Shown: positions 8,025 through 52,312 of the stretch, one piece after another | Numbering within the stretch: position 1 is the first letter of the stretch | Layout of the letters: each line of letters starts with the position of its first letter | Source: Bacteroidota bacterium | GTDB lineage: Bacteria > Bacteroidota > Bacteroidia > B-17B0 > Aurantibacillaceae | Reading direction: 5' to 3' | Assembly (NCBI GenBank): GCA_013297775.1 | Contig: JAAFIL010000005.1 | Coordinates: 1 to 64,000, forward strand | DNA length: 64,000 bases | Position numbers and translations under genes: made by a program | The notes under the pieces: model-generated | Told to the model about the DNA's origin: nothing | What the model saw: only the letters and a program-made list of their open reading frames with translations | Databases searched by the model: none

Positions 8025-11000
8025 TTATCTAAATATAGTAATAGGTCCAGTATAAGGTTTCGTTCGCACCGGACTGTTTAAATTAATAACGTAATAATAG
8101 GTGCCAACAGGTAACTCTTTCCCTCTATAACGCCCATCCCACGGCGTAGAATACCCCGTAGAAGTAAATAATAATTCGCCCCAACGATTAAACACTTCCA
8201 CCACACAACTAGGAAATTGTTGAATGTTATCAATAATCCACGTATCATTTTTACCATCGCTGTTTGGACTAATCCCATTCGGAATTTTAATCTCAGGGAA
8301 AATATCTACACTAACCGTATCGCTGGCGGTGCAACCATTGGCATCCATAACAGTTACCGTATAAACAGTATTAACAAGGTTTCCAGCTATTGGATTTGGA
8401 ACAGAAGTACTGCTTAACGTTGCCCCAGGAGACCATGTATAACCTACTGCTGTTGGTGCCGTTGGATTTCCACCGATACTTACATTAGATAAGGAAGGGA
8501 TAATTTGATAAGGGCCTGCATCAACTGGTGGAGGTGGCAAGGCTTGTACTAAAATAATATCGCTATCAAAACATAACGAATTGCTCGATATAGCCACTAG
8601 TACATACGAACTCGTTCCAACAGGAGGTAACACCGATACATTGACACCAGTGGCTATGGGCGTACCTAAATTCGGCAATAAAAACCATTGCAAAGTAACA
8701 CTTGTACTCGCGTTGGCCGATCCACTTAAATCCACAACTCCCGATTGACAAAACGTAACGTCGCTTCCAGCATTCGCCTCAATAGTGATGGTGGGCACAA
8801 TACTTAAATTTTGAGAACCCACGCAACCACGGCTATCAGTATAACTCAGCGTATAATTTCCCGCAGGCACATTGCTTATATTTTGAAGCGTGCTAGTGAT
8901 GGGTCCTGTGTAAGTAAATGTATAAACGGGTGTACCGCCTGTTAATGCACTACTTATGCCACCATCGTTAACCGACGAACAAGAAGTATTAACAACAGTA
9001 GTGCTTAACACAATAGGCGCAGGATTTAATAAAGTAATAGTTGTTGTTTGTAAACACCCGTTAGCATCTGCAATCGTAATGCTGTAAGTGCCTGTACACA
9101 AGTTATTCGCAGGATTTGTAGTACTGCCGCTTGGCGAGTAACTAAAGGTATAAGCTGGCGTGCCACCAATCGGATTTAAAGCTATGCTGCCATTGCAATC
9201 GTTGTTACAACGCACCTGCGTAATAGTTGCCACACCTAAATTTAAAGGGCTTGCTGTGCCAATAGAAAAACTACTAACCGATGCACAACCATTGCCGCCC
9301 GTTACGGTAACCGTTACTAAACCATTACACAAACCCGTGGCGGTATTTGTAGTGGAACCGTTACTCCAATTGAATGTGTAAGGCAATACGCCTCCTGTTG
9401 GTGTAACAATGGCTGAACCAGTGCAGGCACCAAAACAACGCACAGGCGAGGCATTAAAAGTAATAATTGGGGCATTACTATTTGTAAGGTTAATGTTGGT
9501 TGTTCGGGTACACGTTCCATCGTTAACCAATACCGTGTAAGAACCTGCACCAATATTAGTTAATGTGGCACTTTGTACATTATTAGGTAACCACGTATAA
9601 GTATAAACTCCCGAACCACCGCTTGCTGTTGCCGTTAATGCCCCATTCGACGCTCCACAACTTGGGGTGGTAAACGTTGTACTTACAGTAATATTAATGG
9701 CCGAGTTAATTGCAACCGAAGCCGTTCGCAAACAGCCTTGCGCATCACTCATTTGCAACAAATACGTTCCTCCACATAAATTACTAATGGTACTTCCGGT
9801 TGCTACAGGATTAATCCATGTATAATTTATTGGTAGATTTCCGCCAACAGCAGCTACCGTGGCACTACCATTACACTGGTTAAAACATTGCTCATCAATT
9901 TTGGTAATAATTTCTCCTGTAATACCATTCGAATTATTAACGATAACGGTATTCGTTTGTAAACAATTATTGGCATCCGTTATATTAACATTGTAAACCC
10001 CTGCGCAAAGGCTACTAGTAATAGGCCCCAAGGTGCTATTACTCCAAGTATAAGTATAAGGTCCTATGCCTCCATTTGCTATTATGGTCGAAGCACCATT
10101 ACATAAATTACACGAAGGTTGAATAACCGCCGTGGTAGCAGAAATAGCGGCAGGTGAATTGATAGAGTTGGTATAAGTATTAATACAGCCATTGCCGTCG
10201 GTTACAGTTAAAGTTACCACACCGTTACATAAATTGTTAGCCGTATTTCCAGCTTGTCCATTACTCCACGCCGTTAAGTACGGTGGATTTCCGCCACTAA
10301 CAGAAGTTAAAGAAGCCGTTCCTAAGCACGCACCAAAACATAAGTTATTGGTAGCCGAAGTGCTTGCGGCTATGTTTAAAGTTCCTGTTAAATTATAACT
10401 GGCCGTAAATGTACAACTGGCTTGGTCAGTAATAGTAACCGTTGTTACCCCAACACATACATTATTTATAGAAGAGGTTGTTGCACCCGTACTCCAACTA
10501 TAAGTATAGGCGGGTCCCGTTCCGCCATTAGGTGCTAATACAATGCTACCATCGCATACCCCAAAACATTTCGGATTAAACAACGTTTCGTTATCGTTGA
10601 TCAGAGTCGGTTGCGAAATAACAATCCCTGTAAATAAAATACAATTATTGGCATCGGTTATTTGAGCCGTATAGCCACCCGCACACAAATTGGTAGCTGG
10701 GTTAGTGCTTGGGCTTACTGGTGCCAACCACGAAACCGTATAACCTGGCGCACCACCCGTTATGGTGGTAACCGAAGCTGCACCTGTGCATTGCCCAAAA
10801 CAGGCCACATTAGTAGAACTAATAGCGGCACTGCTTGGGCCATTAGCATTACTTAAAGGAATAACCACCGTGTTGGTACAACTTTGCGAATCGTTAACCG
10901 TTAACGTATAAATGCCTGCCGGGAGTCCAGTAACCACCGAACCTGTGCCAATACCTATAGGAAGCCATGTATAGGTATAGTTTGGCGTACCACCAATAAC

Positions 11001-14000
11001 CCCTACACTAATAGAACCATTAGAACTGCCACAAGTAGAAGCTACCGCAGAGGGATTAACCACTAAAGATGGAGGCTGTACAACGTTAATAGACTGCGTA
11101 ATAGTACAATTATTAGCATCCGAAATGATAACCGTAACTGTTCCACTGCATAAACCAGTAACGCTAGGGCTATTCACAGGAACACCCGCCGACCAAGTAT
11201 AACTAATAGGTGAAGTGGCATTAGAAGGAGTAGCAATAGCTAACCCATTACATAAACCGCTACACGATGGGTTTGTAAACGATACATTGGCAGCAATAAC
11301 AGGTGGATTGGTGAGTGTAACCGCTGCTTGAGTGGTACATAAATTATCATCGGTTACAGTTACCGTATAATTGCCCGCACATAAATTGATTGGGTTTTGT
11401 CCCGAACCTGCCGGCACCCAGTTAAACGAGTAGTTGGGCACACCACCCGATACGCTGGTTGAAATGCTACCGTCGCAAGCGGCATTACACTTGGGCTGAG
11501 AAGGGGTTAAGGTTAAATTAATAGGTGCAGGTTGAATAATAGCAAAGGTTTGCGAACGAATACAGCCATTCGCATCTGTTACGGTACTTGTATAATTTCC
11601 GGCACAAAGTAAATTTACAGTAGATGCGTTAGGCGCACCATTAGACCAAGCAAATGTATAAGAACTAACACCGCCCGTAACAGTAACAGCTGCCGCGCCA
11701 TCACAAACGCCATTGCAACTCACGCTACTCGTGCTTACACTTGCCGATAACAAAGGCGGCTCGGTAATTTGAACAGTAGCCGTTTGCGAACAGTTATTGG
11801 CATCGGTTACGGTTACCGTATAAATTCCAGCACATAAATTACTAACACCAGGGTTCGTTAAGCCGCTTGTAAAACTTGGTGCAATGGGTGTCCAACTAAA
11901 CGTATAAGGCCCTAACCCACCCGAAGGATTGGCAGTAGCACTACCATTGCAAACACCATTGCAACTTAAATCTGTTTTTGTGAAGTTAACTGTAATAGAA
12001 CTAGGCTGAGTAATTGCAAACGTTCGTGTAGAAACACACGCATTAGCATCGGTAATGTTAACGCTGTAAACACCCGCACATAAATTAGTAACGGTTGGGC
12101 TGCCTTGCCCAATAATAGGCGGTGCGGCAGGTAACCAAGTATAAGTAAGCGGTGGAACAGCTCCAGAAGTGGTAAGGGTAATAGAACCCGTGCAAGCAGT
12201 ATTACACAGTACATTGGATACGCTTGAATTAACGGTTAAAGAACTGGGTTGCGCAATCACAAAGGTTTGATTGGTAATACAACCGTTGCCATCACTAACT
12301 TGGGCATTATACGTTCCGCTTGTTAAGGCGTTTAAAAAAACAGTGTTTGTCGTTACAATTGAAAACGATGGCGGACTTATTGTAAACGAGATAGCTGGAA
12401 CACCACTACCAACAAGTGTTGCCGTACCTCCTGCTCCACCAAAACAAGCTAACGAACTATTGGTAACCGAAACCAAAGGTCCCGAAGGGTTACTTAAACT
12501 AGTAGATAGCGTTCGGGTACAACCCGCCACATCGGCAACAACTACCGAATAAACGCCAGCACCAACATTAGTGTTACAGGTATTATTAGCTCCGCCGCTG
12601 CCCGCAGGAGACCATGTAAAAGTATAAGCCCCGCCGTTTCCGCCGCTTGGTGTTACACAAATGGTTCCATTGTTAGAAACGCAAGCACTTGGGGCGGTTG
12701 AAGTAAATACAGCCGTTATAGAACTAGGTTGTGTTACTTGTACCGTTCGCGTTACACTACAATTGTTAACGTCTCTAACTTGAACGGTGTAAATACCCGG
12801 GCATAGCCCACCAATACTAGGTGTAGTAGCTCCTCCCGGACTCCACGAAAAGGTGAGCGCACCCGTTCCGCCTGTTGCCGAGGCACTTGCTGTTCCGTTG
12901 CATAACCCAAAACAACTAACGTTTGTGCTATTGGCCGTCAACGTAATAGCGGGTGGGTTGGCAAAAGCAATGGTTGCCGTGTTGGAACAACCTAAAGCAT
13001 CGGCTGCCGTTACCGTATAAACGCCCGCACAAAGGTTAGTAGCCGTTTGTGTAGTTTGTGTTGGTGCCGTCGCCGTCCAAGTATAACTATAAGGCAAAGT
13101 TCCGCCTGTAGGTGTAGCAATAGCTTGACCTGTACAATCTCCAAAGCAGTTGATAATGGTACCGTTAGCACTCACTATTACACTTACCGTTTGCACAATG
13201 GTTAACGTAAGCGAAGTAGCACAGGCTTTAGAGTCAGTAAGATTAACGGTATAAGTGCCCGGACATAAATTGCTTAACGACGTTCCAGTTCCTATTGTAC
13301 CCGAAGAAGAAGACCAAACTAAATTATACGTTGGTGTGCCACCCGCAGGGGTAACTGTGGCTGCACCTGTACACGCATTACAAGAAGAAATATTTCCTGT
13401 TACATTTCCTACTAATATAGCTGGTGTATTAATTGTAAAATTAGCCGTTTGCGAACAGCCATTATTATCTGTTACGTTAACAATATAATTTCCGGCACAC
13501 AAGCCCGTTAAAACCCCCGTAGTGTTGGTTGTTGGAAAAGGCAATGTATTAAATTGATAGGTGTAACCTGGCACGCCGCCTACAACAAAGGTTGTAACGC
13601 TACCATTACAAATACCATTACACGTTACCGAAGTGGGAATAGTAGTAATGGTTAAAGGAGGCGGTGCCACAAGGCTTGTTGTAAAATTGCGTGTACAACC
13701 ATTGTTATCCGTTAAAAATAAAGTATAAGTTCCCGCGCTTAAGCCTGTATTCGGATTTCCTGAGCCACTTGACCAGCTGAAGGTATAAGTAGGTGTGCCG
13801 CCGCCTGGAATAAAACCAATAGAACCATTGGCTAATCCGGGGCAAGTCGGATTTATAGGATTGAGGGTTGCGCTTAATTGCGAAGGTTGAATAATGGTTA
13901 TAACCGAAGAGGCTGTACAAGCATTGGCATCTATTACATTAAAGGTATAAGACCCCACACAAAGCCCAGTTAACACGCCGCCAGCAACGGTTCCAGTTGG

Positions 14001-17000
14001 TGTTGTCCAACTTAGCGTATAGCCTGGTACGCCACCTAAAGCCGAACCTGATGCAGAACCATTGCAAGATCCGAAACAGGTAACTGAAGTTGTGCTTACC
14101 GAAGGCAATAAAGGATTTGGTTGAATAATTGTAACTGTTCGAGTTTGAGTACAGCCTTGTGCGTCGGTTACACGGATGGTGTAATTGCCAGCACATAAAT
14201 TAGTAAAAGGTAATGGCGTTGTTAAGGTAGTGGCAAAAGGAGTTAATAATTGAACGGTATAATTTGGTGTGCCTCCACTTATAGTGGCATTAATAGACCC
14301 GTTACACGATGAACTACACGAAACATTGCCCACACTTGGGTTAATGGTAATGGTTGACGGTGTAGCAATAACAAATCCAGTAGTTTGAACACAATTATTA
14401 TTATCGGTTACACTTACCGAATAATTTCCGGCACATAAATTTGTTACAATGCCTGTTGTGTTGGTGGTTACGGGCACAGTATTAAATTGAAACGTATAAC
14501 CTGGCACGCCGCCTGTAGCCGAAGCTGTGGCCGCCCCATTGCATAAACCATTACAACTTACCGATGTCGTCAATACCGAAATAGTTACTGGTGGTGGAGT
14601 CGTTAAAGTAGTTGTAAAATTGCGGGTACAATTATTTTGATCGCTCACAAATAAAGTATAAGTGCCAGCTCCTAAATTAATATTTGGATTTCCTGTACCT
14701 GAAGACCACGTAAACGTGTAGGCGGGTGAGCCTCCTCCTAAAGTAAAGCTAATGGAACCGTTTGCTAATCCGGGGCAAGTAGGATTAATGGGATTTAACG
14801 TACCTGTTATTGGCGTGGGTTGATTAATCGTAATTACAGATGAAGTTAAACACCCGTTAGCATCTGAAGCCCCAAACGTATAAGTACCTGTACATAAATT
14901 GGTAAGCGAAGGACCGATAATAGTACCCGTTGGCGTTGTCCAAGTATAAGAATATGCTGGTGTACCGCCGCTTACCGTGCCGCTGGCCGTTCCATTACAT
15001 TGGTTAAAACACGAAAGCGAAGTAGAAGTTACCGAAGGTATTAAAGGATTGGGTTGGGTTAAAGTTACGGTTTGGGTTTGAACACAGCCCGCTAAATCTG
15101 TTACCCGAATGGTATAAGTGCCCGCACACAAATTAATGTAAGGTGGTGCCGTTGAAATGGTAGAGGGCAAAGGCGTTAATAATTGAAAGGTGTAACCTGG
15201 CGTGCCTCCAATGGCCGAGGCGTTTATAGAGCCATTACACACCCCGCTGCAACTTAAATTACCAAGGGTTGGGGTAATGGTGATAGACGTAGGTTGCGTA
15301 ATGCTAATTACCGTCGAAATGGGGCAAGCATTCAAATCATTTACGGTTAAAGTATAGCTGCCCAAACATAAATTGGTAATTGAAGTACCCGTTTGCAAAG
15401 GGGCTGTCCATGTGTAATTGCTTGCAGGTATTGGGCCTGTTCCGCCAATAACAGTAGCCGAAGCGGCTCCATTACAAATACCAAAACAAGTAACGTTAGT
15501 GCGAGTGGCGGTTACGGTTAATGCTGGGGGTTGGTTAAGGGTAACAACAGAGGCAACGCTACAAGCATTAACATCGCGCACTACAACCGAATAAGTACCT
15601 GGGCATAAACCAGAAACGGTGGCAAGTGCAGAAATAGTAGCGGTTGAAGGGGCGGGACCTATTAAAGCGAAGGTTAAAGCACCTGTTCCGCCCGAAGCGG
15701 TTGAACTAATGATGCCATTGCACAAGCCATTGCAAGTGATGTTGGTAAATGTTGGCGTTAGCGTTATTGGTGGCGGTTGCTGAATAGCAAAGGTTTGTGT
15801 TCGAATACAGTTAACATTATCGGCAACGGTAATGGTGTAATTGTTAGCGCACAAACTGCTTAATGAGGGGGTGTTACCTGCCACTGGACTCCAAGTGTAA
15901 GTATAGCCTGCTGGAAAATTTGTAAGCGTGGTGCCGCCCGCCGCCACAATACTTGCCGAACCTGTGCAAACGCCCGCACAAGCTAAACTAGCCGAACTGG
16001 GGGTTAATGTAATAGCTGGAGGTTGAACTAAATTAGCGTTGGCAGTAACCGTACAGCCTCTTACATCGGTAACCGTAGCCGAAATAGGACCTGCACATAA
16101 GCCTGTTAAAGAAGCCGTGCCGCCCACAGGTAAAGAAAAAGTGGGACCAGAACTAAAGTTAACGGTATAACTAATTGGTGCTAAGGTATTGCCCCCTGCG
16201 GGACTTATGCTAAATGAACCGTTACAAACGGTATTACAATTAGGATTAATGACCGTTGAATTGGTAACAAGTGCTGGAGGCTGTGTAAAGGTGCGTGTTA
16301 CCGCTCCTGAACATCCGTTGGCATCAGTTATAGAAAACGAATAAGTATTAGCGCAAATGTTGTTAATGGTAAACGAAGCAGTTGCGCCAACTGTAAATGT
16401 GGGAATGGTAGGCGGATTGGCTGTAACGGTATAAGGAGGTGTTCCACCCGAAATAGTAGCTCTAAAACGCCCATTGCATTGCCCAGGGCAAGTAGAAACT
16501 GTGAAAGAGGTTAGAATGAAGAGAAAACTAGGCGGCGTAAAATTAACTTGATTGCCACCAACAGACCCTGCAAATGGGATAGGATTACCAATGCCATCTA
16601 GCACGTTAATATTGTAGGTAGATGAAGGGCAATTGCAATTACCCGTAGAAGTATATACGGCTGGAATATTAGTGGCACTAATGTTATCGGGAAATGGACA
16701 AGAACCATTGGTGGAGATAACCTCGTAAGGACCGTTAGTACAAGTAGGATCGAGCGAAAGGGTTAAAACTCCCGTGCAAGCCCCTGAACACGAAGGGATG
16801 GTACTTAATGAAAAAGCACACACCGAAAGCACCGATGCGTTTATCAATTTCATACCCGCTGTGGGGTTGAAAGAAGCGGGGACATTAAAAGCCCCTGCCA
16901 CATCTTGCTTACCAATTAAAAACGAACGCTGCGATTTTAGCTGCACAGTTGGATCGATGCTGGTTGTAACTTTGCAATGAAGCGTTGTTAATTTACAAAG

Positions 17001-17582
17001 GATATTGGCTTGATTTTTTATTTTTAAATGCCCAACGGTTATGTTGGCATATTCTAAATCAAATGTTCCGTTTTCGAGGCTTAGGGTTTTAGTATCGCCC
17101 AACACCAAACTATTGAGTTTGTATGTACCCGAGCGTATGGTAACATTGGCATCTAATGCTTTAAGCCCACACGTAATTTCGGCACTTGGTTGCCCCTCGC
17201 CATCAAAAATAAAATTAGTATTGGCCACATAATAAGCTAAATCAGATAAATGAAAGCCCCCTTTTAAAAATAAATAGCTTTGCGCAGCCCCCGTAAAGTA
17301 AAGTTTAAGATCGGTGTTTTGAGTTGAGAACGATTTAACTTGGTTGGTTCCAACAAACTGAACAATGCACTCTGAAAGCCCACTGTTATTATCGAATACC
17401 ACATCGTTTTGGAAATTAGGCTGTACATGGGCAGATGGCCCTCCCGAAGTATAACTCCAATGCAAGGGATCGTTAAAATTACCCGAACCATTTACCCAAT
17501 ACAACGTTTGTGCTTTACCAATAAAAACACCAAAAAACAACCCAAATAGTAAAAGCGTAAACCTTTTAACCCCTTGTAACAT
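8025..17582 (-). CDS. Giant SprB-repeat adhesin with type B T9SS C-terminal domain
   Basis: The 3185-residue product has a signal peptide (MLQGVKRFTLLLFGLFFGVF, ending GKAQ), then a ~250-residue N-terminal region. From about residue 270 to 2950 there are more than 30 tandem SprB-type repeats of roughly 75-80 residues. Each has blocks such as VTCNGICNGS, GGTPxYTFxWS, NLCAGTYTVTVTDANGC and a final IxQP. An Ig/PKD-like region follows (ANAGSDVTFCQSG), then the gliding-motility-type C-terminal domain with IPNGISPNSDGKNDTW, VEVFNRWGELLF, WDGRYRGKELPVGTYYYVI. Such proteins are exported by the type IX system and act as cell-surface adhesins, in some species for gliding. Three Cys per repeat imply many disulfides. 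It forms an operon with porP/sprF just downstream. Whether this cell glides cannot be told from the window. Confidence 0.93.
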   Translation of the reverse strand: MLQGVKRFTLLLFGLFFGVFIGKAQTLYWVNGSGNFNDPLHWSYTSGGPSAHVQPNFQNDVVFDNNSGLSECIVQFVGTNQVKSFSTQNTDLKLYFTGAAQSYLFLKGGFHLSDLAYYVANTNFIFDGEGQPSAEITCGLKALDANVTIRSGTYKLNSLVLGDTKTLSLENGTFDLEYANITVGHLKIKNQANILCKLTTLHCKVTTSIDPTVQLKSQRSFLIGKQDVAGAFNVPASFNPTAGMKLINASVLSVCAFSLSTIPSCSGACTGVLTLSLDPTCTNGPYEVISTNGSCPFPDNISATNIPAVYTSTGNCNCPSSTYNINVLDGIGNPIPFAGSVGGNQVNFTPPSFLFILTSFTVSTCPGQCNGRFRATISGGTPPYTVTANPPTIPTFTVGATASFTINNICANTYSFSITDANGCSGAVTRTFTQPPALVTNSTVINPNCNTVCNGSFSISPAGGNTLAPISYTVNFSSGPTFSLPVGGTASLTGLCAGPISATVTDVRGCTVTANANLVQPPAITLTPSSASLACAGVCTGSASIVAAGGTTLTNFPAGYTYTWSPVAGNTPSLSSLCANNYTITVADNVNCIRTQTFAIQQPPPITLTPTFTNITCNGLCNGIISSTASGGTGALTFALIGPAPSTATISALATVSGLCPGTYSVVVRDVNACSVASVVTLNQPPALTVTATRTNVTCFGICNGAASATVIGGTGPIPASNYTWTAPLQTGTSITNLCLGSYTLTVNDLNACPISTVISITQPTSITITPTLGNLSCSGVCNGSINASAIGGTPGYTFQLLTPLPSTISTAPPYINLCAGTYTIRVTDLAGCVQTQTVTLTQPNPLIPSVTSTSLSCFNQCNGTASGTVSGGTPAYSYTWTTPTGTIIGPSLTNLCTGTYTFGASDANGCLTSSVITINQPTPITGTLNPINPTCPGLANGSISFTLGGGSPAYTFTWSSGTGNPNINLGAGTYTLFVSDQNNCTRNFTTTLTTPPPVTISVLTTSVSCNGLCNGAATASATGGVPGYTFQFNTVPVTTNTTGIVTNLCAGNYSVSVTDNNNCVQTTGFVIATPSTITINPSVGNVSCSSSCNGSINATISGGTPNYTVQLLTPFATTLTTPLPFTNLCAGNYTIRVTDAQGCTQTRTVTIIQPNPLLPSVSTTSVTCFGSCNGSASGSALGGVPGYTLSWTTPTGTVAGGVLTGLCVGSYTFNVIDANACTASSVITIIQPSQLSATLNPINPTCPGLANGSIGFIPGGGTPTYTFSWSSGSGNPNTGLSAGTYTLFLTDNNGCTRNFTTSLVAPPPLTITTIPTSVTCNGICNGSVTTFVVGGVPGYTYQFNTLPFPTTNTTGVLTGLCAGNYIVNVTDNNGCSQTANFTINTPAILVGNVTGNISSCNACTGAATVTPAGGTPTYNLVWSSSSGTIGTGTSLSNLCPGTYTVNLTDSKACATSLTLTIVQTVSVIVSANGTIINCFGDCTGQAIATPTGGTLPYSYTWTATAPTQTTQTATNLCAGVYTVTAADALGCSNTATIAFANPPAITLTANSTNVSCFGLCNGTASASATGGTGALTFSWSPGGATTPSIGGLCPGIYTVQVRDVNNCSVTRTVQVTQPSSITAVFTSTAPSACVSNNGTICVTPSGGNGGAYTFTWSPAGSGGANNTCNTNVGAGVYSVVVADVAGCTRTLSTSLSNPSGPLVSVTNSSLACFGGAGGTATLVGSGVPAISFTISPPSFSIVTTNTVFLNALTSGTYNAQVSDGNGCITNQTFVIAQPSSLTVNSSVSNVLCNTACTGSITLTTSGAVPPLTYTWLPAAPPIIGQGSPTVTNLCAGVYSVNITDANACVSTRTFAITQPSSITVNFTKTDLSCNGVCNGSATANPSGGLGPYTFSWTPIAPSFTSGLTNPGVSNLCAGIYTVTVTDANNCSQTATVQITEPPLLSASVSTSSVSCNGVCDGAAAVTVTGGVSSYTFAWSNGAPNASTVNLLCAGNYTSTVTDANGCIRSQTFAIIQPAPINLTLTPSQPKCNAACDGSISTSVSGGVPNYSFNWVPAGSGQNPINLCAGNYTVTVTDDNLCTTQAAVTLTNPPVIAANVSFTNPSCSGLCNGLAIATPSNATSPISYTWSAGVPVNSPSVTGLCSGTVTVIISDANNCTITQSINVVQPPSLVVNPSAVASTCGSSNGSISVGVIGGTPNYTYTWLPIGIGTGSVVTGLPAGIYTLTVNDSQSCTNTVVIPLSNANGPSSAAISSTNVACFGQCTGAASVTTITGGAPGYTVSWLAPVSPSTNPATNLCAGGYTAQITDANNCILFTGIVISQPTLINDNETLFNPKCFGVCDGSIVLAPNGGTGPAYTYSWSTGATTSSINNVCVGVTTVTITDQASCTFTASYNLTGTLNIAASTSATNNLCFGACLGTASLTSVSGGNPPYLTAWSNGQAGNTANNLCNGVVTLTVTDGNGCINTYTNSINSPAAISATTAVIQPSCNLCNGASTIIANGGIGPYTYTWSNSTLGPITSSLCAGVYNVNITDANNCLQTNTVIVNNSNGITGEIITKIDEQCFNQCNGSATVAAVGGNLPINYTWINPVATGSTISNLCGGTYLLQMSDAQGCLRTASVAINSAINITVSTTFTTPSCGASNGALTATASGGSGVYTYTWLPNNVQSATLTNIGAGSYTVLVNDGTCTRTTNINLTNSNAPIITFNASPVRCFGACTGSAIVTPTGGVLPYTFNWSNGSTTNTATGLCNGLVTVTVTGGNGCASVSSFSIGTASPLNLGVATITQVRCNNDCNGSIALNPIGGTPAYTFSYSPSGSTTNPANNLCTGTYSITIADANGCLQTTTITLLNPAPIVLSTTVVNTSCSSVNDGGISSALTGGTPVYTFTYTGPITSTLQNISNVPAGNYTLSYTDSRGCVGSQNLSIVPTITIEANAGSDVTFCQSGVVDLSGSANASTSVTLQWFLLPNLGTPIATGVNVSVLPPVGTSSYVLVAISSNSLCFDSDIILVQALPPPPVDAGPYQIIPSLSNVSIGGNPTAPTAVGYTWSPGATLSSTSVPNPIAGNLVNTVYTVTVMDANGCTASDTVSVDIFPEIKIPNGISPNSDGKNDTWIIDNIQQFPSCVVEVFNRWGELLFTSTGYSTPWDGRYRGKELPVGTYYYVINLNSPVRTKPYTGPITIFR

Positions 17583-18356: not shown

Positions 18357-18378
18357 ATACCAACATCATTTCTAAAAG
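18357..18378 (+). repeat. Solo end of the foldback element
   Basis: ATACCAACATCATTTCTAAA followed by AG is identical to the left end of the 321/322-bp foldback elements at 45390 and 51991, but no element body follows. It lies in the 282-bp spacer between the NUDIX and yifB genes, which are convergent. Confidence 0.7.
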
Positions 18379-25383: not shown

Positions 25384-25416
25384 CTCAACGTATCTTTTAG
25401 AAATGATGTTGATATC
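25384..25416 (-). repeat. Solo end of the foldback element, reverse orientation
   Basis: On the minus strand this reads ATATCAACATCATTTCTAAA, then AGATACGTTGA. It matches the left end of the elements at 45390 and 51991 over about 30 bases with one change. No element body follows. It lies upstream of the saccharopine-dehydrogenase-like gene. Confidence 0.7.
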
Positions 25417-33750: not shown

Positions 33751-33917
33751 AAGAACCTGTTTAAAGTCAAACTAAGTAAAGCCTTTATGCGCCTTTTTGA
33801 TTTTTACTTCGTTAAATTTTTCGAGATAAATAGCCCATTATCTCTGCAAAATTTGCCTCCTAAAAATCAAAAATTCACTATAAATCATTTATTTATTTTC
33901 AACTTTAAACAACTTCT
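33751..33917. repeat. Palindromic (foldback) intergenic element
   Basis: The left end AGAACCTGTTTAAAGTC is inverted at the right end (ACTTTAAACAACTTCT), about 18 of 22 positions pairing. Inner arms TTTTTGATTTTTA (near 33796) and TAAAAATCAAAAA (near 33861) also pair, and the centre holds GAGATAA...TTATCTC. The whole ~167 bp can therefore fold into one long hairpin. It starts 4 bp after the M1 peptidase stop codon. The remaining spacer to 34084 is AT-rich and without a gene. Confidence 0.65.
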
Positions 33918-39755: not shown

Positions 39756-39782
39756 ATACCAACATCATTTCTAAAAGATACG
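39756..39782 (+). repeat. Solo end of the foldback element, just upstream of a kinase gene
   Basis: ATACCAACATCATTTCTAAA then AGATACG matches the left end of the 321/322-bp elements over 27 bases, with no element body. It ends 4 bp before the ATG of the histidine kinase gene, occupying the place of its ribosome-binding site and leader. Confidence 0.75.
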
Positions 39783-45214: not shown

Positions 45215-45389
45215 TCGCCTATTAACCCTAAATTAAAAAGTTGCAAAAGGCAGATAACATATTCTAAAAAATAAGCATCTGCCTTCTGTAATAACTTGTA
45301 CCATTTATACTTGTAAAATAGTCCAATCTCCAGCGAAAGTGTTTAATTATACTTCTTTAGAAATACTCGACTTAGCCATTACGATGCTT

Positions 45390-45710
45390 ATACCAACATC
45401 ATTTCTAAAAGATACGTTGACCCAGTTTCTTTTTCTCTTATACTTCCTCAACAATTATACCCGTAGGCCTTGCTACGCCTATAATCCGAGATTATGCAAT
45501 AGAAATCTATTACGAACCGAAATCCCTTCAAAACAGTCACTTTTTCTTCTTCACCATAGCAGCACTATGCCTCAGTCGAAAAAGTGCCTGTTTTATTGGG
45601 CTTTCGCCTCTCACTACGATTCCTATTGCATAATCTCGGATAATTTTTTCGTCGCCTAAAAGAAAAATAATTCTGGTTCAACTTGTATCTTTTAGAACCG
45701 ATATTGGTAT
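45390..45710. repeat. Foldback element, copy 1 (321 bp)
   Basis: The terminal inverted repeats are ATACCAACATCATTTCTAAA... on the left and its partial complement ending GATATTGGTAT on the right. Inner arms pair almost perfectly (45481-45507 with 45618-45644; 45530-45546 with 45578-45594), so the whole element can form one long hairpin. The copy at 51991-52312 differs at roughly ten bases. An 80-codon frame crosses it in both copies but is explained by the symmetric sequence. No target duplication is clear. Confidence 0.85.
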
Positions 45711-45823
45711 TACATTTTCTGCCTGGTCTAATTAAAAATTTTTATGTAAATTTTTAGGACTATTTTACATTTACAATTGGTATAACACCAATAGATCTAA
45801 ACTACCCCCAAATTCCTAAAAAC

Positions 45824-45860
45824 AAAAAATCCTTGGTAATTGCTCACCAAGGATTTTTTT
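45824..45860 (-). terminator. Rho-independent terminator of the TonB operon
   Basis: AAATCCTTGGT (45827) pairs perfectly with ACCAAGGATTT (45846) around an eight-base loop; T runs on both strands make it usable in both directions. On the minus strand it lies 18 bp after the tonB stop codon. Confidence 0.88.
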
Positions 45861-45877
45861 AAGTAGTATCTATTAGT

Positions 45878-46681
45878 TTATTGAATACGAAAGTTGATAG
45901 GTAAGTTAAAATAAACGTTTACTGGACGACCGTTTTGTTTACCAGCTTTCCAAGAAGGCATTGCTTTAACTACGCGAATGGCTTCTTTATCGCAATCAGG
46001 ACAACCTGGTACGCCTTTTAAAACTTCTACATTGCTAATAGAACCCGTTCCATTTACAACAAATTTTAAGAAACATTTACCACTTAATCCCGCTTCGCGG
46101 GCCATGGTTGGATATTGTAAGTTTTTTTGAATAAACTTACCCATTTCGGCCATACCACCTGGAAACTCAGGCATTTCTTCTACTACCGTAAAAATTTCGG
46201 GGGCAGCTGGTTCTGCTGGGCCATTACCTGCCTCATCCGAGGGTGGAGCTACAATGTCTTTATCACCTTCTTGGTCTTTTGTTCCTACATTGGTATCTTT
46301 TACTTCTTCTTGCAATTTTTGAGGTTCTTCTTCTACCGCATCATCTTTAATAACTGGCGGCACAAACTTCACCATCTCTACCATTGGTGGCGGTGGCGGT
46401 GGAGGCGGTGGGGGTGGGGTTTCCTCGGCAGGCGGCGGCGGTGTAATATCCACGTTAATATTGCTATAATCTACAGGTACTTCGGCTTCTTGAGGGCGGT
46501 TATCAATAAAAAATTTAACCCCCCATAACAAAAGGCTAAATCCAAATACGCCAGCTACTACTAAGCTTACTGTTTTATTGTAATTGCGTCGAATTTGAAA
46601 AGCACCATACTCTTGATTACGACCTTCAAAAACGATGTCGTTTCGGTTATCGTATGTTGCATTGTTCCAACTTATCATCAT
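45878..46681 (-). CDS. tonB: Energy transducer TonB
   Basis: The 267-residue protein has a cytoplasmic N terminus with the Bacteroidota-typical EGRNQEYGAFQIRRNY, one membrane anchor near residues 35-55, a proline-rich periplasmic spacer (long PPPP run flanked by Glu), and a C-terminal TonB domain from about residue 175 with FPGGMAEMGKFIQKNLQYP, GLSGKCFLKFVV and PINFRIQ at the end. TonB passes proton-motive energy from ExbB/ExbD to outer-membrane receptors. Its start overlaps the stop of the upstream exbD by 4 bp, and a strong terminator follows, closing a four-gene operon. Confidence 0.95.
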   Translation of the reverse strand: MMISWNNATYDNRNDIVFEGRNQEYGAFQIRRNYNKTVSLVVAGVFGFSLLLWGVKFFIDNRPQEAEVPVDYSNINVDITPPPPAEETPPPPPPPPPPPMVEMVKFVPPVIKDDAVEEEPQKLQEEVKDTNVGTKDQEGDKDIVAPPSDEAGNGPAEPAAPEIFTVVEEMPEFPGGMAEMGKFIQKNLQYPTMAREAGLSGKCFLKFVVNGTGSISNVEVLKGVPGCPDCDKEAIRVVKAMPSWKAGKQNGRPVNVYFNLPINFRIQ

Positions 46682-47313
46682 GGGGTACCTCCTGTTTTCT
46701 CGTTAACTAATTCTAACTCCGATTTAAGCATATCAATCACTACATATTTACCAACTAAGTTAATGTTTAACTCATCAATAAGATCAATTACATTTTTATA
46801 ACTGGCCTTATCATCTGTTTTAATCAAAAAAGTAGGCGATTCCTTGTCTGCTTTTACTTCTCTCACTTTACGTTTATAAACCGAATCTACCAATTGCTTC
46901 GATTTAAACTGCGTTTCTAAAGTTTTGATTTGATCGGTAGCCCACTTATTTTTATCTGCTAAATACTTGTGCAAACTCGATTGATCGAAACTGAGTTCTT
47001 TCAATTGCGTGGGTTCGGGTTGGTCTTTGCCTTTGAATTCTTTTTCGTAGTAAAATATTTTATCGTCTTTCGTTAATAAAAAGGTAATCCCATTTTTTAC
47101 TTCGTTTTTAATCTCTGGCTGGTCTTTATCATCTACTGGAAATGTTAGTTCCATAGATTTTGGTTTACTAAACGTTGAGGTTAACACAAAAAAGGTTAAC
47201 AATAGAAACGCTAAGTCAACCATTGGTGTCATATCTATGCGGGTGGACTGCTTCTTGGCGCGTTTTTTACCGCCCTTATGTCCGCCGCCGCCGCCTTCTG
47301 CTATTTCTGCCAT
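46678..47313 (-). CDS. exbD: ExbD/TolR family biopolymer transport protein, second copy
   Basis: The 211-residue protein starts with a Gly/Lys-rich stretch (GGGGGHKGGKKRAKKQ), followed by the ExbD signature TRIDMTPMVDLAFLLLTFFVL with the proton-channel Asp in the membrane helix. A periplasmic domain ends GKYVVIDMLKSELELVNE. It partners with ExbB and TonB in the inner membrane. Two ExbD genes in one operon are common in Bacteroidota. It is separated from the first exbD by 30 bp and overlaps tonB by 4 bp. The inserted charged region (about residues 85-150) is longer than in Escherichia coli ExbD. Confidence 0.93.
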   Translation of the reverse strand: MAEIAEGGGGGHKGGKKRAKKQSTRIDMTPMVDLAFLLLTFFVLTSTFSKPKSMELTFPVDDKDQPEIKNEVKNGITFLLTKDDKIFYYEKEFKGKDQPEPTQLKELSFDQSSLHKYLADKNKWATDQIKTLETQFKSKQLVDSVYKRKVREVKADKESPTFLIKTDDKASYKNVIDLIDELNINLVGKYVVIDMLKSELELVNEKTGGTP

Positions 47314-47343
47314 TGTTTAATTCGTTTATGTATGAAACTTAAT

Positions 47344-48006
47344 TTAATTCGTTGGTTTGGCTTCTAAACCCGTAATCAGGTTAAACTGATATATTTTTAA
47401 ATCGGTAAATGCTTTTACCACATCTTTTACAAAAATATATTTGGTTTTACCGTCGCACTTAATGGCATAACGCGGTTTTTCGGCTTTTAACTCTTGATTG
47501 GCTTCTTTTGCCTTGTCTTTAGCACGTTCGTAAATTCTTACAGCCTCTGCACCACCATTAGAAATCCAATCTTTTAATTGATTGTTAGTAGAATCTAACG
47601 GAATGCCTTTTTGGCCTTTGAAAGTGATGCGTTCGTTTTCGCTGGCATTAATATAATTGGGCAAATCTTTAATGTCCACTCCAAAGCTGGGTAAGCCACT
47701 AAATTTTTTAATTTGCTCAGGTGTAAAGCTAACCTTATACTTCTCGCTCATTTTAGCTAAAGCATTTACTTTAGCTTCGGCATTACTAATGCCAAAAAAG
47801 GCGCGTCCAGTGTTGTCAATGGTTACCATGATGTGATTATCGGGCAACGTAATTTCGCCAATGGATGAAGGAGGGTCAACTGTTACGGGTTCTGCCATAC
47901 GAAAGCTTGCCGTCAACATAAAAAAGGTTACCAATAAGAAGGCTAGATCCACCATGGGTGTCATATCTAACGCTGGTGCTCCGCCTTTTGATGGTTTCTT
48001 TGACAT
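47344..48006 (-). CDS. exbD: ExbD/TolR family biopolymer transport protein, first copy
   Basis: The 220-residue protein begins MSKKPSKGGAPALDMTPMVDL and has one membrane helix (AFLLVTFFMLTASF) carrying the conserved Asp. The periplasmic part includes RYAIKCDGKTKYIFVKDVVKAF and ends TGLEAKPTN. It has the same role as the second copy in the TonB motor, and the two differ enough to form a heteromeric pair. It lies 66 bp after exbB and 30 bp before the second exbD. Confidence 0.93.
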   Translation of the reverse strand: MSKKPSKGGAPALDMTPMVDLAFLLVTFFMLTASFRMAEPVTVDPPSSIGEITLPDNHIMVTIDNTGRAFFGISNAEAKVNALAKMSEKYKVSFTPEQIKKFSGLPSFGVDIKDLPNYINASENERITFKGQKGIPLDSTNNQLKDWISNGGAEAVRIYERAKDKAKEANQELKAEKPRYAIKCDGKTKYIFVKDVVKAFTDLKIYQFNLITGLEAKPTN

Positions 48007-48072
48007 AGCTTTTTTCTTTTTAGATGAATACTTTATTAATTTTCCACATTATTTTTTCAACTTATCGAAAAA

Positions 48073-48876
48073 TTATTTTCCGCTAGCTTGAAAATCTTGA
48101 ATAATTGAGAAACCAGCTTCATCCATCGCGTAAGTTATTTGATCCACACGATTTGAAAACAAGTTATAAAAAATGATGGCAAACGCCGAGGTTAAAATTC
48201 CCACTAAAGTATTTACAAGTGCCTCCGAAATACCTGTTGCAAGTGCCGATGTATCGGGCGCACCCGCATTAGCTAAGGCGGCAAACGCACGAATCATCCC
48301 TACTACTGTACCAATTAACCCGGCTAAGGTTCCAATCGAAGCCATGGTCGAAATAACCACCATGTTTTTAGATAACATCGGCAATTCTAAAGCCGTTGCT
48401 TCTTCAATTGACTTTTGAATAGCGGCTACTTTCGATTCTTTGTCCATAGACGAATCGTTTTGAACGAATTTATATTTTTCTAAACCTTCGCGCACCACGT
48501 TGGCTAACGAACCTTTTTGCTTATCGCATTCAGCAATAGCACCATCTAAATCGTGGCTACTAATTAATGATTTAATGCGCGCTACAAATTTATCGGTTGC
48601 ACCACGGCCGTTCGCCTTTTGAATGGTAATGAAACGCTCAATAGCAAAAGTAATTACAGTTAATAAGAAACCAATTAAAATAGGCACAATAAAACCACCT
48701 TTGTACATAGTACCCAAAATATTATGTGGATGGCCTTTATCTGGATCGCCGCCTTCAAAGTTAGATGGAGCTCCTAATACGCCTTTGTAAATAAATACAC
48801 CGATAACGATACAAATGGCAATGGCTAATGCCGATACGATTAACGGAAATCCTCCTGATGTTTTGTTCTTGCTCAT
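48073..48876 (-). CDS. exbB: ExbB/TolQ/MotA proton channel protein
   Basis: The 267-residue protein has a first membrane helix near residues 12-30, a second near 57-80 (PILIGFLLTVITFAIERFI), a cytoplasmic helical part, and the conserved ExbB segment MASIGTLAGLIGTVVGMIRAFAAL leading into ATGISEALVNTLVGI. It forms the pentameric stator that moves protons and drives ExbD/TonB. It is the first gene of the exbB-exbD-exbD-tonB operon, and the 197-bp spacer upstream should hold the operon promoter. N-terminal extension with an extra helix is typical for Bacteroidota. Confidence 0.94.
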   Translation of the reverse strand: MSKNKTSGGFPLIVSALAIAICIVIGVFIYKGVLGAPSNFEGGDPDKGHPHNILGTMYKGGFIVPILIGFLLTVITFAIERFITIQKANGRGATDKFVARIKSLISSHDLDGAIAECDKQKGSLANVVREGLEKYKFVQNDSSMDKESKVAAIQKSIEEATALELPMLSKNMVVISTMASIGTLAGLIGTVVGMIRAFAALANAGAPDTSALATGISEALVNTLVGILTSAFAIIFYNLFSNRVDQITYAMDEAGFSIIQDFQASGK

Positions 48877-49073
48877 AGCTTATTTTTATTTTTAGTTAAT
48901 TTTTTTATTGAACGCCAAACTTAGTAAATAACTTTTAAAGATAAAAACCACTTTTTACTAAACAGGGCTTTTTTATAGTTAAATCAACGTTTTTGAGGCT
49001 TAAATATTTCGTATTAAACTCATTTTATCGAAATTATTTGCAACTGGTTGGTTTTTTCCGATAAGTGGTTAAA

Positions 49074-50177
49074 TTACTCCTTTACCCAGCCAACAAAGGC
49101 TAACACGTCTTCGGTATCTACCTTCTCCCAAGTTTTTTTTTCGTAATTCCACACCGTAATACCTTGTTGGTAGCTTTCTGTCCCAATTAACAATTCTTTA
49201 ACAATAGCAACCATATTTGCTAACGATTTAAAATTCTTTAATTGAAAATGAAACTTACCAATTTCTTTGTCGTTTAATTTTACGATACGCCCGTAGGCAT
49301 TGGTCTTGCACTCGGCACTAAAGCCATTTTGTGGTTTTGTAAATTGAAGTTCGGTAATGCTAGAAGCCGTTGCATCTAACATAATTTGTTTGGTGCCTAT
49401 TTGATAAATACCCAACGTTTTTGAAAGGCGATTAAACGTTGCCGCAGTTGTTGAAGGCACAATAATAACAGTCCCCAAATTCACAGTCTGCTTGGTGTCT
49501 ATAAATAGTTTCATAAATTTAACTTCTGTGTTTTCTTTATTGAAATGCGCATAAATAAGCGTGTTTTCATCTATCCACCAAAGCAAAGGGTCGGGTATGC
49601 GGGTATCGTTTAATACTTTTTGTCCATAACCCGCATCCTTACTTAGTTCTACTTTTGGCTTGCTAGGTGGATATAAAATTAATTGAAAAGGCTGCTTGGT
49701 TTTATCAAACTCAACATCTTGCCCTACCTTCCCTTTAAATAAGAGTTGTTTCACCTCCGTATATGCCTTTGTTTTAAAGCTATACACCGCGTAATATTTA
49801 CCTTTAAATGCATCGTTGATGTAATAAATCACACTATCGTTGCGCACATCCACTACATTGCCTCTGCCATCCCACAACACTTTTTTTTCTTTTAGGTCAA
49901 TAATATTTCCTATTCCTGTTATCAAGTAACGCTCATTGTATAAAGTGTTTTCGCCTATATCGGTGCGCACGTAATCTTTTCCGTTCTGTTTACCCGAAAC
50001 AGTCAGTAATTCTTCTCGACCTGTAAAATGCCCGTTTAAAAAATGGTAGTTGTAAATTTTTTGTTTGAAATCACTTTTTGTTGCCGCTTCTACATGCACT
50101 ATAATTAAGCCCTGTTTATTGTCTTGAGCTAAAAGTGTAATATTTAAACTAACAAGTATTAAAAGAAGAAACTTCAC
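49074..50177 (-). CDS. Exported hypothetical protein, beta-rich
   Basis: The 367-residue product has a signal peptide (MKFLLLILVSLNITLLAQ) and a beta-rich mature part with propeller-like phrases (YLITGIGNIIDLKEKKVLWDG, YYAVYSFKTKAYTEVKQL, LLWWIDENTLIYAHF, GITVWNYEKKTWEKVD). No catalytic motif is visible and I do not recognise a named family. It starts 3 bp after the stop of the leucyl aminopeptidase gene, so it is probably co-transcribed with it. Location is likely periplasmic. The last residues (FVGWVKE) do not resemble a T9SS sorting domain. Confidence 0.75.
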   Translation of the reverse strand: MKFLLLILVSLNITLLAQDNKQGLIIVHVEAATKSDFKQKIYNYHFLNGHFTGREELLTVSGKQNGKDYVRTDIGENTLYNERYLITGIGNIIDLKEKKVLWDGRGNVVDVRNDSVIYYINDAFKGKYYAVYSFKTKAYTEVKQLLFKGKVGQDVEFDKTKQPFQLILYPPSKPKVELSKDAGYGQKVLNDTRIPDPLLWWIDENTLIYAHFNKENTEVKFMKLFIDTKQTVNLGTVIIVPSTTAATFNRLSKTLGIYQIGTKQIMLDATASSITELQFTKPQNGFSAECKTNAYGRIVKLNDKEIGKFHFQLKNFKSLANMVAIVKELLIGTESYQQGITVWNYEKKTWEKVDTEDVLAFVGWVKE

Positions 50178-50180
50178 TAA

Positions 50181-51617
50181 CTAATATAAATTGGCAAAAA
50201 AATCGAATAGTAAACGCACCCCAACACCTGTACCGCCTTTGCCGCGGTAACTGTCTTTAGCAGCAACAAAAGCTGGACCCGCAATGTCTAAATGAAAATA
50301 AGGATAGTCGGTAAACTTAGCCAAAAATTTCCCAGCAGTAATAGCCCCACCATAAGGCCCACCAATATTTTTTTGATCAGCAATATCGCTTTTCATTAAC
50401 TCATCGTACTCCTCCCAAAACGGAAACTCCGCAATACGTTCGTAAACATTGTGTCCACTAACTTTAAGTGCTTGTTTTTGCGTTTCGGTAGCCGTACCCA
50501 TTCCCACTATACCATACTGCCCAATGGCGGCGGCGGCGGCACCAGTAAGTGTGGCCAAATCTATCGTTAATTCAGGTTTAAATTGTTTGGCATAATGTAG
50601 GGCATCGGCTAAAATCATGCGCCCTTCGGCATCGCTGTTTAGCATTTCAACGGTACTCCCATCCATCATGGTAATAATATCGCCAGGCGCAAAGGCATTA
50701 AATCCTGGCCTGTTATCGGTTGCAGGAACTAAAGCAATAACGTGTACGGGTAATTTAGCTTTAGCAATGGCAAACATGGCACCGCCTACTGCTGCGGCAC
50801 CTGCCATATCGCACTTCATGCTATCCATGCTATTGGGTGTAGGTTTTAAACTTAATCCGCCCGTATCGTAAACCACACCTTTTCCAACTAATACATAAGG
50901 TTTTTTATTTTTGGCATTCTTGGGTTTGTAGTGCATAATGCTAAAAGTAGGTTCATCTACACTACCTGCATTTACAGCTAATAAACCGCCCATTTTCTTT
51001 TGTTTAATTTTTGTTTTGTTCCAAACCTCTACACTAAAGCCCGCTTGTTTTCCCATTTTTTGAAAAGCGGCCGCCAAATCAGAAGCATTTAAACAATTAA
51101 CGGGTTCGTTCACCAAATGGCGCGCTAGGTAAGTGGCTTCAACAACGGTACTTAAACGTTCCACCTCTTTTGCGCTGGTGTTCGAGTGAACCACCGTAAT
51201 GGTTGTTAAACTTGCCGCATTTTTAGCAGAAGGTTTGTGGTGTAAAAACTGGTACGAGACCAACGCTGCTCCTTCGGCTGCGGCTAAGGCCAAAGACGTG
51301 GCGTTCGAAACGTTAGTAATTTCTAACTCTGTCCCTTTAACTTGATTCACCAAATCGGCTACTGAAGCACCGTGTTGGCGGGCTTGTTCTTTTAAAACAT
51401 ATAACTCTTTGCTTTCATCAACAATTAATACACTTGCAATACGCCCTAAATAATTGGTAGTAACGGCATTCGTGTTAGGCTGTTCGAGTTCAGCTTTTAA
51501 ATAATTTTTTAATTCGACAGGCAAGGTATTAGCTGCAAGAGCTGCCTCAATGTTAGCGGCAATAACCAAGAAGTGTGCATCGGCACTAAATTTTGTTTTA
51601 TATTGAATGGTTAGCAT
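50181..51617 (-). CDS. M17 family leucyl aminopeptidase
   Basis: The 478-residue protein has the variable N-terminal domain and a C-terminal catalytic domain with the two-metal motifs YVLVGKGVVYDTGGLSLKP, MKCDMAGAAAVGGA and the M17 signature NSDAEGRMILADAL. The conserved Arg/Lys and bicarbonate-binding residues fall within these blocks. It hydrolyses N-terminal residues of peptides in the cytoplasm, normally as a hexamer using zinc or manganese. Length is typical and there is no signal peptide. It is the first of a two-gene unit with the exported hypothetical protein, 3 bp apart. Confidence 0.95.
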   Translation of the reverse strand: MLTIQYKTKFSADAHFLVIAANIEAALAANTLPVELKNYLKAELEQPNTNAVTTNYLGRIASVLIVDESKELYVLKEQARQHGASVADLVNQVKGTELEITNVSNATSLALAAAEGAALVSYQFLHHKPSAKNAASLTTITVVHSNTSAKEVERLSTVVEATYLARHLVNEPVNCLNASDLAAAFQKMGKQAGFSVEVWNKTKIKQKKMGGLLAVNAGSVDEPTFSIMHYKPKNAKNKKPYVLVGKGVVYDTGGLSLKPTPNSMDSMKCDMAGAAAVGGAMFAIAKAKLPVHVIALVPATDNRPGFNAFAPGDIITMMDGSTVEMLNSDAEGRMILADALHYAKQFKPELTIDLATLTGAAAAAIGQYGIVGMGTATETQKQALKVSGHNVYERIAEFPFWEEYDELMKSDIADQKNIGGPYGGAITAGKFLAKFTDYPYFHLDIAGPAFVAAKDSYRGKGGTGVGVRLLFDFFANLY

Positions 51618-51702
51618 AATTTTTTTATTAGAAGGACTAATATACGAGAATTTACGAAAAGGAAAGAGGAGAGATGGTTAAAACTTTTTTTATCTGTAAT
51701 TT

Positions 51703-51915
51703 CTAAGACATCGAGTACTTTAGAATAAACCCTATAACTGATGTTTCTACCAATGAGGCTCTGTAACGATAAAGAGTGGGTAGTTTTAGTGTTGTATCAT
51801 TTGGTAAATAACAACCTGTTAATAAGCATAGAGCGTGAAGTTTTTTTATCCATTGGTAGTCCTTTACATCTATTTTTGGGTTGTTGTCCAAATACCAATA
51901 AAACTTCAAAACCAT
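51703..51915 (-). CDS. Small doubtful ORF in the spacer before the foldback element
   Basis: A 70-codon ATG frame (MVLKFYWYLDNNPKIDVKDYQ...) reads somewhat protein-like but ends without a recognisable domain. It lies in the 374-bp spacer between the aminopeptidase gene and the foldback copy at 51991. It may be a short gene or a remnant; the rest of the spacer shows nothing else. Confidence 0.25.
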   Translation of the reverse strand: MVLKFYWYLDNNPKIDVKDYQWIKKLHALCLLTGCYLPNDTTLKLPTLYRYRASLVETSVIGFILKYSMS

Positions 51916-51990
51916 TTTCTTGAAATTACGGTTGAGATGATACTCTGTTGATTTATAGGTTAATTATCGGCAAGAAAAATCACAGTATTA

Positions 51991-52312
51991 ATACCAACAT
52001 CATTTCTAAAAGATACGTTGACCCAGTTTCTTTTTCTCTTATACTTCCTCAAAAATTATACCCGTAGGCCTTGCTACGCCTATAATCCGAGATTATGCAA
52101 TAGAAATCTATTACGAGCCGAAATCCCTTCAAAACAGTCACTTTTTCTTCTTCACCTTAGCGGCACTATGCCTCAGTCGAAAAAGTGCCTGTTTTATTGG
52201 GCTTTCGCCTCTCACTACGATTCTTATTGCATAATCTCGGATAATTTTTTTCGTCGCCTAAAAGAAAAATAATTCTGGTTCAACTTGTATCTCTTAAAGC
52301 CGATATTGGTAT
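51991..52312. repeat. Foldback element, copy 2 (322 bp)
   Basis: Near-identical to 45390-45710 in the same orientation, with about ten scattered differences, including one extra T in a T run and changes in the right terminal repeat (TATCTCTTAAAGCC instead of TATCTTTTAGAACC). The inner hairpin arms are kept, and changes such as CTATT versus CTTATT fall near unpaired positions. It lies in a spacer between the aminopeptidase and metalloprotease genes. Confidence 0.85.

Follow-up and report, generated by a model that had tools for sequence, protein, structure and literature searches.

Results

Two nested foldback elements

The window (the whole stretch of DNA analysed, 64,000 nucleotides) contains two foldback copies of 321 and 322 bp, three solo ends and a divergent hairpin member (Table 1), as well as an open reading frame of 3185 aa on the minus strand at 8025-17582. 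The first-pass annotation had described the copies at 45390 and 51991 as near-identical and able to fold on themselves and indeed they share 97.2% identity, fold over their entire length and carry genuine terminal inverted repeats (ATACCAACATC../..GATATTGGTAT). Its 321/322-bp body is actually a nest of two elements. The true unit is an outer element of 162 bp with ends ATACCAAC..GTTGGTAT that hosts an inner element of about 154 bp (CCGAGATTATGC..) with a 5-bp duplication, ATAAT. Upon searching the element's own genome (4.35 Mb, 128 contigs) we found composite positions 1-96 and 251-321 together without the middle part, and positions 97-250, the inner element, alone at dozens of sites. The outer element without the insert reads CTACGCCTATAATTTTTTCG and the filled site in the composite CTACGCCTATAAT[CCGAG..CTCGG]ATAATTTTTTCG, which shows that the inner element inserted into the outer one with duplication of ATAAT. 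Three composites, those at 45390 and 51991 and one further along the contig at 96205, have the internal insertion in common and lie at distinct targets; the composite therefore moved as one unit.

Copy 1 itself sits in an older member of the family. Once copy 1 and one TTA are removed, the flanking pieces (45298-45389 and 45711-45783) form a decayed relative of 162 bp whose arms still pair after rejoining. The locus is therefore a three-layer nest and gives a relative clock of element activity. The divergent hairpin member at 33753 (33.4 bits, E=8e-5), whose ends are IS1031-like (GAACCTGTTTA), had been overlooked in the first-pass annotation.

Table 1. Members and fragments of the element family in the window
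Feature	Position	Strand	Details
Solo end	18357..18378	-	22-bp exact truncated arm of outer element
Solo end	25385..25415	+	31-bp truncated arm, 96.8% identity
Divergent hairpin member	33753..33916	-	ends GAACCTGTTTAAAG..CTTTAAACAACTTC; TAA/TAA duplication; between convergent genes
Solo end	39756..39782	-	27-bp exact truncated arm; just upstream of ORF at 39787
Older decayed member	45298..45783	-	hosts copy 1; arms GTACCATTTATACTTGTAAAATAGTCC / GGACTATTTTACATTTACAATTGGTAT
Composite copy 1	45390..45710	-	outer parts 45390-45485 and 45640-45710, inner element between; flanks TTA/TTA
Inner element, copy 1	45486..45639	-	154 bp, ends CCGAGATTATGCAATAG..CTATTGCATAATCTCGG; ATAAT at 45481-45485 and 45640-45644
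Composite copy 2	51991..52312	-	322 bp; flanks TAA/TAG, variable N equal
Inner element, copy 2	52087..52240	-	ATAAT at 52082-52086 and 52241-52245

A dispersed family with a TNA target duplication

The outer element is present in about 100 copies in the window's genome, where 111 right ends were counted. Its terminal 22-mer has 209 genome matches at up to 3 mismatches, a number that counts both ends of each element, and the reversed control has 0; an exact-pattern scan of the genome_contigs set for the outer end gave no match. Insertion is accompanied by a 3-bp target duplication, TNA. Of the 57 copies of genome G000 with both flanks present, 48 carry it exactly on each flank, and the variable N is equal on both flanks in 51, compared with 19.9 expected and a maximum of 32 in 2000 permutations. 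The target consensus is YTNAR and across species the TNA duplication is found in 52 of 69 elements. Related-empty sites were detected where copies had entered other repeats (L037 and L036; for example CGC-TCA-AACAAGG around L037). The duplication and the related-empty sites point to a cut-and-paste mechanism that cuts the two strands 3 bp apart. Together with the dispersal of about 100 copies they bear out the MITE-like mobility that had been proposed; at 162 bp, with terminal inverted repeats and no transposase gene, the element has these features of a MITE. Shared positions in distant relatives, which would have argued against mobility, were not seen in the nearest named syntenic relative: L176 (76.6% nucleotide identity to window 45890-51653) has no family member across 17 kb. 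A Tc1-type mobiliser, which had also been suggested, does not fit a duplication that is TNA and not TA.

The solo ends noted at 18357, 25384 (reverse) and 39756 are real. They had been thought to be excision scars or the recognised site itself; they are truncated copies, not scars. Left-end pieces of 22-50 bp occur in the window (18357, 25415 and 39756) and also in L165, L169, L171 and L175, and right-end pieces exist too, so that one-sided truncation proceeded from either end, which rules out a truncation restricted to one side as in TPRT. Two other apparent solos (L174 3976-4014, 39 bp; L168 2441-2501, 61 bp) are deletion derivatives with both ends and the TNA duplication, and a third (L302) is a relative whose core differs. 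At L302 729-891 a full outer element abuts the end of this kind of relative, with the same arm and a different core, possibly by arm exchange. A transposon spanning the facing solo ends at 18357 and 25415 was also considered and rejected, as ordinary genes lie between them (Mg-chelatase ChlI and saccharopine dehydrogenase) and the flanks are unlike.

The left-end truncations within the window, and the RNA-like constraint on one strand described below, would suit a SINE-like element copied via RNA by a reverse transcriptase acting in trans. We regard this as extremely unlikely since truncations come from both ends, and since a DDE enzyme would account for the fixed 3-bp duplication and the palindromic target consensus.

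A folded core conserved across Bacteroidia

In congeneric species, BLAST with the 162-bp element recovered diverged relatives (72%). A first covariance model, built from nine of these, detected elements in 15 of the 40 genomes of the genus, at a near-fixed length of about 161. A second model detected the family in 26 of 295 genomes and 15 genera of Bacteroidia (a class name taken for this set from its named relatives), with full-length matches of about 149-201 nt. Class-wide the termini differ (ATACCAA, AGGCATTG, GAGCCTG, AGAGCTAA), mostly with TNA duplications. Covariation was measured on the minus strand in an alignment of 42 elements and 49 pairs, in which the phylogeny of the copies was not modelled. 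Double changes that keep pairing were seen in 34 of the 49 pairs; paired cells amounted to 93.2%, compared with 76.9% after shuffling, and the covariation score was 0.453, compared with 0.165 when shuffled and at most 0.11 when slid. The conserved parts include purine-rich internal loops (..GACGAUGAA / UGAAGAAG..) and an apical stem (GCAUAGC..GCUACGG) bordered in A+T-rich genomes by A and U runs. The hairpin core is kept although the arm sequences have changed almost completely, and thus the fold itself seems to matter.

Pairing of the arms could also persist without selection, if template switching at a quasipalindrome copied one arm onto the other. Such a process accounts for whole arms changing together and for genome G019, where terminal A/T has become G/C on both sides, but the internal loops and mismatches that are conserved would then be lost as well, and G.U would gain no advantage over A.C on one strand. 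We consider it improbable as the source of the arm pairing.

In the window no Rfam family matched at its gathering threshold, and at E<=5 the search gave sub-threshold hits only, none at a family's gathering score. Our literature searches found no description of the family in the works covered. We take the outer elements and their relatives to be a previously unlisted MITE superfamily that spans Bacteroidia and conserves a folded core on one particular strand.

The minus strand is constrained

Of 69 elements, 67 fold better on the minus strand (-52.7 vs -39.9 kcal/mol), and so does every class-wide example listed. Since base composition favours G.T, column shuffles served as the reference. In the arms we counted 59 G.U where 73 were expected and 12 A.C where 37 were expected; the corresponding values in the core were 74 and 115 for G.U, and 25 and 62 for A.C. 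The young G000 copies contain 49 G.U-making and 26 A.C-making transitions, and in this young family unpaired sites are twice as variable as paired ones. From these comparisons we conclude that the minus strand is selected as a folded single strand. The purine-rich loops suggest RNA and are also compatible with single-stranded DNA, two states that strand asymmetry alone cannot separate. Structured RNA had been raised as an alternative in the first-pass annotation, and the covariation, the conserved internal loops and the strand asymmetry all support it.

A hairpin constraint on one strand is likewise in accordance with a single-stranded-DNA element moved by a Y1 transposase of the REP or IS200/IS605 type, and Bacteroidetes are rich in TnpA-REP of subclass 2.4 (PMC6006769). 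A mobiliser of this kind, proposed earlier in its REP/Y1 form, is very unlikely here: the element has a precise 3-bp TNA duplication where none should be present, it lacks the GT[AG]G foot, it measures 161 nt against 21-65 nt for REPs, and its flanks are without GC-skew bias (t=0.8).

The genomic setting allows for another explanation, namely that hosts keep the structure as structured 3'UTRs, RNase III sites or bidirectional terminators (cf. NEMIS, ERIC) and that harmful copies are purged. In accordance with this 27 of the 57 copies lie between convergent genes (21 are in tandem and 9 in divergent settings), only 4 lie inside an ORF call (by simple ORF calling), the A and U runs flank the apical stem in A+T-rich genomes, and the G.U preference is already seen in young copies. 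However, the G+C-rich relatives L315-L319 have exchanged the A/U runs for a G+C helix with the loops kept, so what is conserved is not a terminator, and at tandem sites neither orientation predominates (12 vs 9). Retention by the host is in our opinion an unlikely account of the constraint.

The inner element resembles IS1380

The 5-bp duplications of the inner copies are ATAAT, ATTAT, TTCAA and TTAAA. An IS1380 transposase gene (L090 1114-2163, G000:C112; NF033539 above cut-off), truncated by the contig end, starts beside CCCAAATTATGCAATAG and is inserted in a 161-bp element. The inner end CCGAGATTATGCAATAG is shared with this CCCAAATTATGCAATAG, one IS end having been compared. The inner element has the end CC...ATTATGCAATAG and a 5-bp duplication in common with the IS1380 family; unlike IS1380 it is only about 150 bp long and gene-less, and shares the end alone. 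From these sequence features we classify it as a predicted IS1380-type MITE, with the L090 element as its probable parent. The second covariance model scores its minus strand at 20-28 bits and the antisense at 7-15, and folding, too, is stronger on the minus strand (-81.4 vs -65.4); the inner element may therefore carry a shortened form of the outer-family core, a suggestive likeness only. Longer inner variants (L006, L014-L018, L024 and others) continue after GCATAAT with TCCATCTAACTC..TTTACAGAGTTAG and end again in AAAATCTCGG, and some of them carry an additional palindromic repeat, GTCCTCGTTTCCGC...

A candidate mobiliser

ISLrh, a member of the IS5 family (IS1031 subgroup), carries GAACCTGTCTAGTATCT at its ends and duplicates TNA (PMC12016507). 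The outer family shares the TNA duplication with this subgroup and its MITEs, and some members end in GA[AG]CCTGTTTA.. like ISLrh. IS1031-like ends together with TNA are found in the 33753 member and in members from genus g9 (GAGCCTGTTTAGGATCTC). Unlike the subgroup, most outer-element copies end in ATACCAA and match it in the TNA duplication only. We know of no conserved folded core reported for IS1031 MITEs.

The first-pass annotation had envisaged a transposase whose own ends match; the families and genomes searched yielded no such gene flanked by ATACCAA ends. Searches with PF01609 (own genome and 11 others) and PF13359 (genus) gave no IS with matching ends, nor did unpaired GAGCCTG ends in the g9 genomes and 20 small contigs. 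DDE_Tnp_4 occurs in 3 of 40 genus genomes, with other ends where these are visible, and DDE_Tnp_1 is absent from the element-rich G008, G019, G050 and G052. The only DDE_Tnp_4 match in G000 is a degenerate IS5-like transposase gene with ends CCTCTTTCATAATT (L371, G000:C78).

Discussion

Our preferred reading, to which we give a probability of about 0.6, is a MITE-class element mobilised in trans by a TNA-cutting DDE transposase, with a folded RNA or single-stranded-DNA strand that is functionally needed. The non-autonomous element of about 162 bp would be moved by an enzyme, most likely of the IS5/IS1031 type, that cuts YTNAR with a 3-bp stagger. One copy in the lineage received the predicted IS1380-type MITE at ATAAT, after which the 321-bp composite kept moving as a unit. 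The minus strand folds into a long hairpin, a fold kept while arms and even termini were replaced. As RNA, or less probably as single-stranded DNA, the folded strand may be required at some stage of the element's life, possibly mobilisation or host tolerance via RNA processing.

A more tentative possibility, which we hold to be rather doubtful, is that the core is itself a mobile structured RNA, selected and needed in folded single-stranded form to propagate. It would ride several unrelated IS systems across Bacteroidia, between the termini of different transposases: ATACCAA, AGGCATTG and GAGCCTG with 3-bp TNA, and CCGAG with 5-bp duplications.

Taken as a MITE moved in trans, the outer element resembles ERIC/RU-1, Correia/NEMIS and RUP, bacterial MITEs of 100-200 bp that are A+T-rich, present in about 100 copies, with inverted ends, target duplications and transcripts predicted as long stem loops (reviewed in PMC2229807). 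Those elements are of Tc1/mariner or IS630 type and duplicate TA, whereas the outer element duplicates TNA with a variable N; unlike them, the present elements occur in many families of Bacteroidia, have exchanged their termini, and show quantitative covariation and conservation of the internal loops. The 3-bp duplication and the foldback body are also reminiscent of the eukaryotic Tourist/PIF-Harbinger MITEs of plants, which have a 3-bp TWA-type duplication and a foldback body and for which we know of no conserved RNA core. With REP/BIME sequences and their RAYTs the family shares palindromic intergenic repeats that fold on one strand; it differs from them in the same length, duplication and foot that argue against a Y1 enzyme.

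Bacterial MITEs are usually regarded as inert DNA with ends recognised by a transposase. Here the ends change and yet a folded core with specific loops persists in at least 15 genera of Bacteroidia, outside Rfam. If movement depends on the fold, the question of how orphan bacterial MITEs move would become directly testable; if it serves the host, the family would represent a large new class of mobile regulatory RNA.
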